Of a stretch of 64,000 bases of DNA, positions 58,177 through 61,037 are shown piece by piece. The notes beneath the pieces were generated by a model that was given only the letters and a program-made list of their open reading frames with translations, had not been told where the DNA came from and ran no database searches. The DNA comes from Rhodopseudomonas pseudopalustris (GTDB lineage Bacteria; Pseudomonadota; Alphaproteobacteria; Rhizobiales; Xanthobacteraceae), in assembly GCF_900110435.1 (NCBI RefSeq), contig NZ_FODT01000006.1, positions 248,001 to 312,000 of the forward strand, written 5' to 3'. The position numbers and the translations under genes were made by a program. Within the stretch, counting starts at the first letter, position 1; each line of letters begins with the position of its first letter.

Positions 58177-59574
58177 ATGGCGTCATCGATCGTCCCTCAC
58201 CTCTCGCGGGACCGTGTGCCGAGAACCTATCCGTCGCGGGCGGCGGTCACCGGCTGGATCTTCTTCGACTGGGCGGCGCAGCCTTATTTCACGCTGATCA
58301 CTACCTTTATTTTCGCACCCTATTTCGCCACCTATGTGGCGCCCGATCCGGCCACCGGACAATCGCTGTGGGGTTTCGCCACCGCGGCGAGCGGCATGGT
58401 GATCGCGCTGGCTTCGCCGGTGCTGGGCGCGGTCGCCGATGCCAGCGGCCGACGCAAGCCGTGGATCGCCGTGTTCGGCGCGATGCTGGTGATCGGATCG
58501 ACGCTGATGTGGTTCGGCAGGCCGGGCGATGCCGGCGTGATCCTGCCGCTGTTGATTGCCTATGCGATCGCGACCATCGGAGTCGAATTCGCCACCGTGT
58601 TCAACAATGCGATGATGCCGAATCTGGTGCCGCCCGAGAAGATTGGAAAACTGTCCGGCACCGGCTGGGCCACCGGCTATATCGGCGGAATTCTCTCGCT
58701 CGTTCTGGTGCTCGGCTTCCTCGCCGCCAATCCGCAGACCGGCAAGACACTGCTCGGCGTCACTCCGCTGTTCGGGCTCGACCCGGCGAGCCATCAGGGC
58801 GACCGCATCACCGGCCCGCTCACCGGGCTGTGGTTCATCGTGTTCGTGCTGCCGATGTTTCTGCTGACGCCGGATTTTCCCGCAAAGCGCTCGTTGCGCG
58901 CCGCTGTGGGTACGGGCCTGAACGAATTGCGCGAGACGCTGCGCGACCTGCCGCGGCGGCGCTCGCTCGCCGCCTTCCTGCTCGCCAACATGATCTACAC
59001 CGACGGGCTGGTGTCGCTGTTCGCGTTCGGCGGCATCTACGCCACCGGCACCTTCGGCTGGGGCACGATCCAGATCGGCAGCTTCGGCGTGATCCTGGCG
59101 ATCGCCGCGGCGTTCGGCGCGTTCATCGGCGGGCGACTCGACGACGCGCTCGGCTCCAAGCGGGTGATCGCCGGATCGATCGTGCTGCTGCTGATCTCGA
59201 TCATCGGCATCCTGCTGATCGATCCGTCGCACATTCTCTTCATGGACGTGACGCCGCCGCAGCCCGGCGCCGCACTGTTCGCGGCGCCTGCGGAGCGCGC
59301 CTATCTGCTGCTCGGCTGCCTGATCGGCATCGCCGGCGGCCCGCTACAGGCGGCGTCGCGCACCCTGCTGATCCGGATCGCACCGCGCGACCGCATCGCG
59401 CAATATTTCGGGCTGTTCGCGCTGACCGGCAAGGTGACGTCGTTCATCGGTCCGCTGCTGATCGCCAGCATCACCGCGATCACCGCCAGCCAGAAAGCCG
59501 GCATGGCGGTGCTGGTGCTGTTCTTCGCCGCGGGGCTGGCGCTTTTGACGCAGGTGCGCCGCTCGGAGGACTGA
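58177..59574 (+). CDS. MFS transporter, Atg22/UMF1-like
   Basis: A 465-residue membrane protein with about 12 helices. WIFFDWAAQPYFTLITTFIFAPYFA in TM1 and GVEFATVFNNAMMPNLVPPEKIGKLSG in the TM4-5 loop are signatures of the Atg22/BtlA-like MFS group. The substrate is unknown. The stop TGA at 59572-59574 overlaps an ATG with GGAGG upstream that opens a longer version of the aroG leader frame. Confidence 0.85.
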   Translation: MASSIVPHLSRDRVPRTYPSRAAVTGWIFFDWAAQPYFTLITTFIFAPYFATYVAPDPATGQSLWGFATAASGMVIALASPVLGAVADASGRRKPWIAVFGAMLVIGSTLMWFGRPGDAGVILPLLIAYAIATIGVEFATVFNNAMMPNLVPPEKIGKLSGTGWATGYIGGILSLVLVLGFLAANPQTGKTLLGVTPLFGLDPASHQGDRITGPLTGLWFIVFVLPMFLLTPDFPAKRSLRAAVGTGLNELRETLRDLPRRRSLAAFLLANMIYTDGLVSLFAFGGIYATGTFGWGTIQIGSFGVILAIAAAFGAFIGGRLDDALGSKRVIAGSIVLLLISIIGILLIDPSHILFMDVTPPQPGAALFAAPAERAYLLLGCLIGIAGGPLQAASRTLLIRIAPRDRIAQYFGLFALTGKVTSFIGPLLIASITAITASQKAGMAVLVLFFAAGLALLTQVRRSED

Positions 59575-59586
59575 TGAACCACCGCG

Positions 59587-59615
59587 TGGACAAACACGCC
59601 GGCTTGGTCTATACG
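59587..59615 (+). promoter_or_regulatory. Sigma-70-type promoter of the DAHP synthase leader
   Basis: The -35 element TGGACA (59587-59592) and the -10 element TATACG (59610-59615) are 17 bases apart. The expected +1 is at 59621-59623, which is the A of the leader AUG, so the transcript would be leaderless. Rhizobial trp attenuator transcripts are known to begin at the leader AUG, which supports this reading. Confidence 0.6.
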
Positions 59616-59621
59616 ACCAGC

Positions 59622-59699
59622 ATGATCCACCTGACCGCCTCGTTCTGGTATTACTATTTTAACAGCTCGCTGGCGGCGGGAGGATTTCGCTCGATCTGA
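59622..59699 (+). CDS. Aromatic amino acid leader peptide of the DAHP synthase gene
   Basis: A 25-codon frame whose codons 8-13 read Phe-Trp-Tyr-Tyr-Tyr-Phe (59643-59660), six aromatic codons in a row. It ends 23 bases before a terminator hairpin and 87 bases before the enzyme gene. It fits a classic ribosome-stalling leader sensing aromatic amino acid supply. An in-frame upstream ATG (59574) with a strong ribosome site would give a 41-residue form from the upstream gene's transcript. Confidence 0.8.
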   Translation: MIHLTASFWYYYFNSSLAAGGFRSI

Positions 59700-59731
59700 A
59701 GATTGCAGCATCAAATCCGAACAGCCGCCAG
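59670..59731 (+). promoter_or_regulatory. Antiterminator pairing of the aromatic attenuator
   Basis: CTGGCGGC at 59670-59677 is perfectly complementary to GCCGCCAG at 59724-59731, the left arm of the terminator. A ribosome stalled on the aromatic codons would leave the first segment free and allow this pairing; a ribosome reaching the leader stop would cover it. Confidence 0.75.
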
Positions 59732-59746
59732 ACCTGGCGGCTTTTT
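59723..59746 (+). terminator. Attenuator terminator hairpin
   Basis: AGCCGCCA pairs with TGGCGGCT around a GACC loop and runs into TTTTT, a textbook intrinsic terminator. It sits between the leader peptide and the DAHP synthase start, and its left arm is shared with the antiterminator. Confidence 0.85.
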
Positions 59747-59786
59747 CGTTGAAGCCGGCGGGTCTCCTGATCAGGAGCTAACTGCC

Positions 59787-60881
59787 GTGTTGACCACCAC
59801 CGACGACCTTCGCCTCAAGCAACTCACCGAACTCAGTACGCCCGACGAGGTGATACGCGAGATCCCGCGCACGCTTGCCGCGACGCGCACCGTTGCTGCG
59901 GCGCGCAGCGCCATTCATGACATCCTCACCGGCGCCGACGACCGGCTGCTCGTGGTGGTCGGCCCCTGTTCGATTCACGATCCGGCCGCGGCCATGGACT
60001 ATGCCAGCCGTCTGGCGGCGCTGCGCGAGACCTTCGCCGACCGGCTCGTGATCGTGATGCGGGTGTATTTCGAGAAGCCGCGCACCACCGTGGGCTGGAA
60101 AGGGCTGATCAATGACCCCGACCTCGACGGCAGCTTCCGGATCGACAAGGGGCTGCGGCTCGCGCGGCAGGTGCTTGCGACCGTGACCAATCTCGGCCTG
60201 CCCACCGCGACCGAATTCCTCGACCTGATCACGCCGCAATACATTGCGGATCTCGTCGCCTGGGGCGCGATCGGCGCCCGCACCACCGAGAGCCAGATTC
60301 ACCGCGAACTGGCGTCGGGCCTGTCGTGCCCGATCGGCTTCAAGAACGGCACCGACGGCAACGTCCGGATCGCGGCGGAGGCCGTGAAGTCGGCTACGCA
60401 GCCGCATCATTTCATGGCGGTGACGAAGGGTGGCCGCAACGCCATCGCGGCCACCACCGGTAACAGCGACTGCCACGTCATCCTGCGCGGCGGCGTCGCG
60501 CCGAACTTTGACGCCGCAAGCGTCGAAGCGGCCGCCGCGGTGCTCGCCAAGGTCGGCATCGCGCCGCGTTTGATGATCGATGCCAGCCACGCCAACAGCA
60601 GCAAGCAGCCGGAGAACCAACCGAAAGTCGCGGCCGATGTCGCGCGTCAGGTGGCGGCGGGCGATGCCCGCATCATCGGCATGATGATCGAGAGCAACCT
60701 CGTTGCCGGCCGGCAGGAGGTGGTGCCGGGCAAGCCGCTGACTTACGGCCAGAGCATCACCGACGGCTGCATCGACTGGGCGACGACCGAAAGCGTGCTG
60801 CATGATCTCGCCGCCGCCGTGGAAGGCCGGCGCGCCGCTAGGCAGCCGGCGCGGCTGCAGCACAAGGGTGCCGCGGCCTGA
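59787..60881 (+). CDS. aroG: 3-deoxy-7-phosphoheptulonate synthase, class I (DAHP synthase)
   Basis: A 364-residue enzyme joining phosphoenolpyruvate and erythrose 4-phosphate, the first step of aromatic amino acid synthesis. VVGPCSIHDP near residue 65 is the PEP and metal region, RVYFEKPRTTVGWKGLINDPDLDG is split by residues typical of AroF/G/H proteins, GARTTESQIHRELASGLS and IDASHANS follow. The start is GTG 59787 with AGGAG 9 bases upstream. The paralogue type (Phe, Tyr or Trp sensitive) is not assigned. It is preceded by an aromatic attenuator. Confidence 0.93.
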   Translation: MLTTTDDLRLKQLTELSTPDEVIREIPRTLAATRTVAAARSAIHDILTGADDRLLVVVGPCSIHDPAAAMDYASRLAALRETFADRLVIVMRVYFEKPRTTVGWKGLINDPDLDGSFRIDKGLRLARQVLATVTNLGLPTATEFLDLITPQYIADLVAWGAIGARTTESQIHRELASGLSCPIGFKNGTDGNVRIAAEAVKSATQPHHFMAVTKGGRNAIAATTGNSDCHVILRGGVAPNFDAASVEAAAAVLAKVGIAPRLMIDASHANSSKQPENQPKVAADVARQVAAGDARIIGMMIESNLVAGRQEVVPGKPLTYGQSITDGCIDWATTESVLHDLAAAVEGRRAARQPARLQHKGAAA

Positions 60882-60938: not shown

Positions 60939-61037
60939 AGCGTTTTCGAGCGAAGTTGATCCCGGTTCGCGTGAAGAAAACGCGTCAGAACAAAAAGTTA
61001 GAGCTTCGGTTCTGATTCAATCAGAACCGGAAAAGCT
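60939..61037. repeat. Dispersed repeat with hairpin (family C, copy 2)
   Basis: It carries CGAGCGAAG and GGTTCGCGTGAAGAAAACGC, then a hairpin whose arms CGGTTCTGA and TCAGAACCG enclose TTCAA, with outer arms TAGAGCTT / AGCTCTA overlapping the purH stop. It closely matches half of the element at 33405-33593. Lying between convergent genes, it can serve as the purH terminator. Confidence 0.8.

Follow-up and report, generated by a model that had tools for sequence, protein, structure and literature searches.

What controls aroG, the DAHP synthase gene that follows an MFS-type transporter gene (58177–59574) in this part of the Rhodopseudomonas pseudopalustris genome? The gap between the transporter gene and aroG (59787–60881) constitutes the aroG leader region, and the first-pass annotation of the window (the whole stretch of 64,000 nucleotides analysed here) had assigned to it a leader-peptide attenuator for DAHP synthase. 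Our analysis bears this assignment out, with an aromatic ORF followed by a terminator in 73 of 95 loci and two mutually exclusive pairings that covary, and we consider it highly probable (about 0.9) that aroG is controlled by a ribosome-mediated transcription attenuator. Inspection of the sequence located every element that had been described between 59587 and 59787—the promoter, the 25-codon leader, the aromatic run, the complementary 8-mer, the terminator, the T-run and aroG. The features of the region, with the type of evidence in brackets, are as follows.

59587–59592, + strand: −35 hexamer TGGACA (sequence; position conserved in relatives).
59610–59615, + strand: −10 hexamer TATACG, with a 17-nt spacer from the −35 hexamer and six bases to the leader ATG (sequence, conservation).
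59622–59699, + strand: leader ORF MIHLTASFWYYYFNSSLAAGGFRSI, 25 codons to the TGA at 59697–59699, with a predicted leaderless start (sequence, ORF, relatives).
59624–59686, + strand: possible 1:2 hairpin, in which the leader start would pair with segment 2 (folding prediction only, without covariation support).
59643–59660, + strand: control codons TTC TGG TAT TAC TAT TTT, encoding Phe-Trp-Tyr-Tyr-Tyr-Phe as codons 8–13 (sequence, chance test, positional conservation).
59670–59677, + strand: segment 2 core CUGGCGGC, the left arm of the antiterminator, which copies the right arm of the terminator (sequence, covariation).
59682–59687, + strand: second arm of segment 2, GGAUUU (sequence, folding).
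59689–59709, + strand: inner hairpin of the antiterminator, surrounding the leader stop codon (folding).
59713–59718, + strand: AAAUCC of segment 3, the partner of the second arm (sequence).
59723–59746, + strand: intrinsic terminator (3:4), AGCCGCCA-GACC-UGGCGGCU plus U-run (terminator prediction, covariation).
59724–59731, + strand: segment 3 core GCCGCCAG, whose alternative partners are segment 2 and segment 4 (sequence, covariation).
59773–59777, + strand: probable aroG ribosome-binding site AGGAG, nine bases 5' of the GTG at 59787 (sequence).
59787–60881, + strand: aroG, encoding a type I DAHP synthase of 364 aa, the predicted target of regulation (ORF, profile match).

Within this layout, CTGGCGGC (59670–59677) is the perfect complement of GCCGCCAG (59724–59731), and the terminator stem (59723–59742) comprises eight pairs and a loop of four, followed by TTTTT. 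The antiterminator also has a second arm that the earlier description had not mentioned, formed by GGATTT (59682–59687) with AAATCC (59713–59718). Among 5000 dinucleotide shuffles of 59575–59786, only one produced six consecutive aromatic codons behind an ATG, and no other run of this length or longer exists in any of the six frames of the window. In profile searches, the upstream gene product gave weak transporter-family matches, and the aroG product scored 522.7 bits against TIGR00034 (cut-off 173.2); with the AroG equivalog model, the same product reached 530.4 bits, below the cut-off of 568, so the isozyme name is to be taken loosely.

To place the leader in a comparative context, 95 type I aroG loci were assembled: 15 from 149 same-family genomes—every family genome with a type I aroG match, the other 134 having none—and the best 80 of 589 from a species-level collection. 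A locus qualified when it held an ATG-started ORF with at least four F/W/Y residues in eight codons and a terminator starting 55–135 nt downstream of the ATG, the leader ATG being hand-picked for L010, L012, L022 and L040. This rule selected 73 of the 95 loci, including all 15 from the same family, and the qualifying leaders occur in Alpha-, Beta- and Gammaproteobacteria, taking the classes of the named records to be those that the record names imply. Examples are the leaders of Mesorhizobium (MIHLTATYWYFSSSLAAGGLRSI), Bradyrhizobium (MITVATSYFWYFSYDSSLAAGGSRSI), Xanthomonas (MNASCRSFYFWYYGFPMPLAEEGSRSP) and Burkholderia (MSAKFYFYFFWYLRPLADREG). The 22 loci outside the rule include Erwinia, Enterovibrio, Photobacterium, Methylotenera, Thauera and several MAGs; among these 22, no terminator was found in L071, L079, L086 and L094 despite an aromatic ORF, and the contig of L058 begins too close to the gene. 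In a Rhodopila MAG (L044), a GTG-started aromatic ORF (VILVRSFSGRFYRPYHEWRRRGARVI) and a terminator lie upstream of aroG, an arrangement excluded by the ATG rule that looks like a degenerate or alternative-start leader. The leaders of L121 and L123, two genomes belonging to one family, appear eroded or rearranged, MNAARTLSARFYPRSIAGGIRGA of L121 retaining two aromatic residues, one F and one Y; they represent a possible changing or decaying device.

Transcription had been proposed to start on the leader AUG itself, and the predicted +1 is the A of the ATG at 59622. A promoter scan of 59300–60000 called none, because the TGGACA/TATACG pair, with 9 of 12 consensus matches, does not end in the T demanded by the scan; the case for this promoter is consequently one of conservation. 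At the same distance from the leader ATG, a TTGACA/TATAAT-like pair with at least 8 of 12 matches is present in 30 of 31 alphaproteobacterial loci, in 5 of 9 Xanthomonadales and in 2 of 32 other loci—with TGnTA in all nine Xanthomonadales—while 13 of 2000 random upstream positions, drawn as a control from the alphaproteobacterial and Xanthomonadales loci, reach the same score. When the best −10 was sought over 30 bases, 40 of the 72 loci scored had it 6–8 nt 5' of the leader ATG: by hand count, 28 of 31 in Alphaproteobacteria, 9 of 9 in Xanthomonadales and 3 of 32 in the others, the last figure being about the chance level over 31 positions. In many leaders of Burkholderiales, a stretch resembling a −10 element or TATAAA lies farther upstream. 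The proposed promoter position is thus conserved in Alphaproteobacteria and, since the placement is kept there and in Xanthomonadales and is nearly absent elsewhere, the leaderless start looks like a lineage trait. From this pattern we infer a transcript starting at the AUG at 59622. In B. japonicum, 320 mapped starts fall within 10 nt of a start codon (PMC4842269), and aroG is not mentioned in the main text of that article on these starts.

The leader peptide could instead be made mainly from an upstream in-frame ATG at 59574, as a product of 41 aa on readthrough from the MFS-transporter gene, with the leaderless promoter in a minor role. This ATG overlaps the stop codon of the transporter gene and is preceded by GGAGG (59565–59569); yet no upstream in-frame start is listed in three of five same-genus relatives (L003–L005), and the other two have only GTG or TTG. 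Within the fetched flanks, moreover, homologues of the transporter were found at six of the 95 loci only (L001–L006), and the promoter by the leader ATG persists in other Alphaproteobacteria. We therefore regard translation chiefly from 59574 as unlikely.

The association of the leader with aroG extends well beyond this genomic setting. In the fetched flanks, homologues of purH, like those of the transporter, were found at L001–L006 alone, which indicates that leader and gene stay joined across different neighbourhoods. (Between aroG and purH, at 61008–61028, lies a perfect palindrome, GGTTCTGATTCAATCAGAACC, which is a dispersed repeat with seven exact genome copies; the reversed control had none.) Genome scans were run with R1, a covariance model of the leader. 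At 46 bits or more, a cut chosen post hoc, R1 matched 14 of 385 sampled alphaproteobacterial genomes, at least two of which had supplied R1 sequences, and the same 14 genomes hold the strong aroG protein matches of the sample; one extra weak match was obtained in G356 (E 6.8e-4, 31% over 80 residues). aroG lies inside the fetched leader flank in 13 of the 14, and in the remaining genome, G335, leader and aroG occupy the ends of two contigs. At E ≤ 0.01, R1 matched 110 of the 385 genomes; most listed matches under 40 bits cover just the terminator end of the model, and the two highest-scoring matches under the cut, L124 (39.8 bits) and L125 (37.4 bits), have no aroG in the fetched flank. A phylum-wide sample gave the leader in 48 of 398 genomes at E ≤ 1e-6 (at least seven of the 48 had contributed to R1), and a comparison of the listings by eye places each of the 48 leaders immediately 5' of an aroG match and on its strand. 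Type I aroG itself is present in 225 of the 398 at E ≤ 1e-50, so that 48 of 225 genomes with the gene have the leader by R1—a proportion on which the loss of weak matches through strict R1 filters bears. Two aroG-linked matches in this phylum sample score 40.7 and 43.2 bits, below the 46-bit cut chosen for the alphaproteobacterial sample. In its own genome, the aroG leader is the single strong R1 match (99 bits; next 22.1). This genome also encodes a type II DAHP synthase (PF01474; L096), and no ORF of 8–45 codons with at least three aromatic residues is listed in the 500 bases upstream of that gene; on this ground, the type I and type II isozymes are probably regulated differently.

The composition of the leader ORF matches the suggestion that one device carries codons for several aromatic amino acids: F, Y and W all occur in the densest ten residues of 53 of the 73 leaders, W being absent there from 19 (12 of them Oxalobacteraceae by name) and Y from one. 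Four successive aromatic codons have T as their first base in at least 90% of the 73 rows, with variable second and third bases, which suggests that the aromatic class is conserved more than the exact residue. Position relative to segment 2 is equally structured, with aromatic codons at codon distances 6, 7, 8 and 9 upstream in 72, 73, 69 and 65 of the 73 loci, at distance 5 in 25, at distance 4 in 48, at distance 3 in four and at distances 1–2 in none. In 44 of 73 loci, the final aromatic codon starts 12 nt upstream of segment 2. A ribosome reaches about 12–15 nt beyond the A site, and this spacing would be about that at which the leading edge, with the last aromatic codon in the A site, just frees segment 2.

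Segment 2 lies in the second half of the peptide. It is read in a common frame in 63 of 73 loci and in other frames in eight and two, and these ten loci retain its RNA sequence despite the different frame; L025, L026 and L029 (Devosia and a Hyphomicrobiales MAG), for instance, read GSRWQP over segment 2, with the caveat that some frame shifts in single MAGs could be assembly errors. Such changes are what would be predicted of an RNA arm preceded by control codons, as opposed to a conserved peptide. They also bear on the possibility that the leader serves chiefly as a source of a trans-acting sRNA or peptide, in the manner of rhizobial rnTrpL/peTrpL, with attenuation secondary. In keeping with that idea, termination would yield a predicted RNA of ~125 nt that begins on its own AUG, as rnTrpL is described as doing (PMC7298713); however, strong leader matches adjoin aroG in the scanned samples (separate contig ends in G335), the frame changes argue against a conserved function of the second half of the peptide, and the N-terminal residues of the leader differ between orders. 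A primarily trans-acting role is accordingly, in our estimate, very unlikely, and cis-acting attenuation remains the preferred explanation.

The RNA structures that attenuation calls for were evaluated by folding and covariation. The leader RNA (59623–59755) has a folding energy of −52.5 kcal/mol, compared with the −37.25 (sd 3.64) obtained with shuffles (z −4.19), and the antiterminator fold of 59670–59731 has −30.5 kcal/mol versus −14.4 for the terminator stem. In the covariation alignment (A2; 73 sequences, 71 distinct rows, the relatedness of which inflates pairing and covariation scores), 98.6% of cells pair in the terminator and 88.5% in the antiterminator core, with both-side changes in three of eight and five of eight pairs, respectively; none of 500 shuffles matched the observed pairing or covariation score of either structure, and the five both-side pairs of the antiterminator were equalled by 1 of 500 (71 rows). 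Pairing in the slid controls did not exceed 63% and 52% of cells, and 34 of 71 rows fail to pair at columns 67 and 132, the final pair of the antiterminator. The arms differ little among the 22 closest Alphaproteobacteria, and there the antiterminator shows no more both-side changes than shuffles do (101 of 500); once the inner hairpin is added, the pairing and covariation scores of these 22 beat 500 of 500 shuffles, and their both-side pairs were reached by 41 of 500. In two Oxalobacteraceae (L032 and L034), the three arms shift jointly to AGG/CCT/AGG. The conservation of paired arms with compensatory changes, anticipated for the two hairpins, is therefore observed for the terminator and the antiterminator—two of the pairings. 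The third, the 1:2 hairpin, which in this class of attenuator restores termination when translation is absent, obtained no covariation support in the 73-locus alignment; it beats shuffles at p ≤ 0.05 in 22 of 73 loci, related sequences being counted singly, with p 0.58 in the window, and may exist in some Bradyrhizobium and Burkholderia relatives.

That the hairpin is the ordinary terminator of the upstream gene—the end of which is just 12 bases upstream of the −35 box—and the aromatic run a coincidence was rejected as contradicted by the comparative data, given the 1 in 5000 chance of the run, the same arrangement at 73 of 95 loci, the presence of the transporter upstream of six of them only and the compensatory changes in two exclusive pairings. 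The locus combines a control-codon ORF, an intrinsic terminator and an exclusive antiterminator with evolutionary support, that is, the anatomy of the attenuator class.

In the attenuation model drawn from these parts, transcription would begin at the leader AUG, and the first ribosome would translate behind RNA polymerase. With charged tRNA-Phe, tRNA-Trp and tRNA-Tyr plentiful, this ribosome would pass over segment 2 to the stop codon, leaving segment 3 free for segment 4 and bringing about termination at the U-run near 59746. Were any aromatic tRNA scarce, the ribosome would halt on codons 8–13 and leave segment 2 open; segment 2 would then capture segment 3 before segment 4 is made, and the polymerase would read into aroG. 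Phe, Tyr and Trp all descend from DAHP, and the mixed codon run would, for that reason, act as an OR gate on the entry enzyme of the pathway.

With a ribosome mask placed within the run or at its end, to represent stalling, the leader of the window folded into 2:3; with the mask at the stop codon, it folded into 3:4. Across the loci, equilibrium folding of the stalled state favours the antiterminator in just 17 of 73 (12 of 73 when the ribosome is placed on the final aromatic codon), which means that the model depends on segment 3 being captured kinetically. This energy test discriminates poorly across loci, and its counts include L048, whose long ORF left no sequence for the stop state. The 2:3 pairing does form before segment 4 exists in 72 of 73 loci, a weak test of such capture because shuffled versions of segment 2 also form it (915 of 1460). 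A pooled threshold test was of little use owing to a very wide null (observed mean 20.9; null mean 10.8, sd 6.5), with 59 of 73 scores under the null mean + 2 sd. The commonest leader stop lies 27 nt past the start of segment 2 (36 of 73 loci), where a ribosome may already be just past the core of segment 2—a point that counts against the model.

How does the aroG leader relate to systems already described? At the gathering score, Rfam produced no leader match in the window or in 15 relatives, the one match in the window being a tRNA. The best permissive match to the leader, RNAI, reached 29.8 of 47 bits, mainly over the terminator, and membership of Phe_leader (RF01859) was rejected at 23.3 bits against a gathering score of 55. 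The likeness to the latter lies in the aromatic control codons, the attenuator fold and this weak similarity; the Phe leader of enterics (pheA and pheST type) has Phe codons and serves other genes. Branched-chain leaders of the ilvGMEDA type likewise unite the control codons of several related amino acids in one leader, and differ from the aroG leader in their amino acids, genes and sequence.

The first-pass annotation had modelled the device on the rhizobial trpE(G) attenuator (trpL; rnTrpL/peTrpL) of Sinorhizobium meliloti and Bradyrhizobium, whose transcript is described as starting on the leader AUG (PMC7298713). The consecutive control codons and the terminator with antiterminator are common to both, going by the account in PMC7298713, and an AUG start is predicted for aroG. 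As a classification, nevertheless, the comparison is not supported: rhizobial trpL has Trp codons and controls trpE(G), whereas the gene here encodes a type I DAHP synthase, the codons are a mixture of F, W and Y, the sequence is different and the leader occurs outside Alphaproteobacteria as well. What emerges is a family of aroG itself, also found in Xanthomonadales and, with a different promoter position, in Burkholderiales. The same genome separately carries a Trp leader, MRTSSYQTQIRLWWRTS, upstream of trpE(G) (L097), preceded by TTGACT, 17 bases, a poor −10-like TGCTCT and six bases to the ATG; its end, LWWRTS, is identical to that given for B. japonicum peTrpL (PMC7298713).

Attenuation ahead of DAHP synthase genes has precedents. 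It has been proposed for E. coli aroF (PMC8632094), and the same article describes uORFC-13-1 ahead of Acholeplasma aroF, in which one or more Phe codons of the uORF and a terminator precede the DAHP synthase gene; this element is represented by 24 sequences, from Acholeplasma and environmental samples only, and is unlike the E. coli leader. The description of uORFC-13-1 there mentions no Tyr/Trp run, which the aroG leader has. Merino's database also predicts attenuators upstream of Vibrio aroA-I-alpha-Y > tyrA, among others (PMC1173090); these predictions too place an attenuator before a type I DAHP synthase gene, but include tyrA-associated operons among the rows listed. By the ATG rule, the Vibrionaceae loci of Enterovibrio (L090) and Photobacterium (L095) show no aromatic leader. 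Two uORF candidates with F and Y codons have been reported at shikimate genes (PMC6429828). No proteobacterial aroG leader of the present kind was among the open-licence PMC matches listed, and Vitreschak et al. 2004 or Merino's database may list one. The aroG leader looks like a well-conserved, apparently uncatalogued example of a long-known attenuator switch.

Since it would work like classic attenuators, and both multi-amino-acid leaders and attenuation of DAHP synthase are already known or proposed, we file it with the known attenuators; what is valuable in it is its breadth and its natural variants. A wider reading of all the data, which we hold tentatively and judge somewhat doubtful as a whole, would see an uncatalogued RNA family that travels with type I aroG through Alpha-, Beta- and Gammaproteobacteria, switches between leaderless and leadered forms and between frames of segment 2, and releases, where leaderless, a terminated RNA of ~125 nt that may act as a free small mRNA or sRNA. 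As part of that tentative reading, the family would sense the aromatic class, any aromatic codon being sufficient, and starvation for Phe, Tyr or Trp would open the first gene of the pathway. The natural variants—Trp-less runs in Oxalobacteraceae, frame changes in segment 2, leaderless and leadered forms—let one probe what attenuation needs, namely which codons count, what distance to the antiterminator is required and how leaderless starts perform, and the aroG leader could become both an RNA family entry and a part for aromatic biosensors. The synthesis of all aromatic amino acids is entered through DAHP synthase, whose enteric form is known for feedback inhibition and for TyrR/TrpR repression. 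If the conserved attenuator proves true, many Proteobacteria with type I aroG would, with a single element, gate this pathway by the supply of any of three charged tRNAs.
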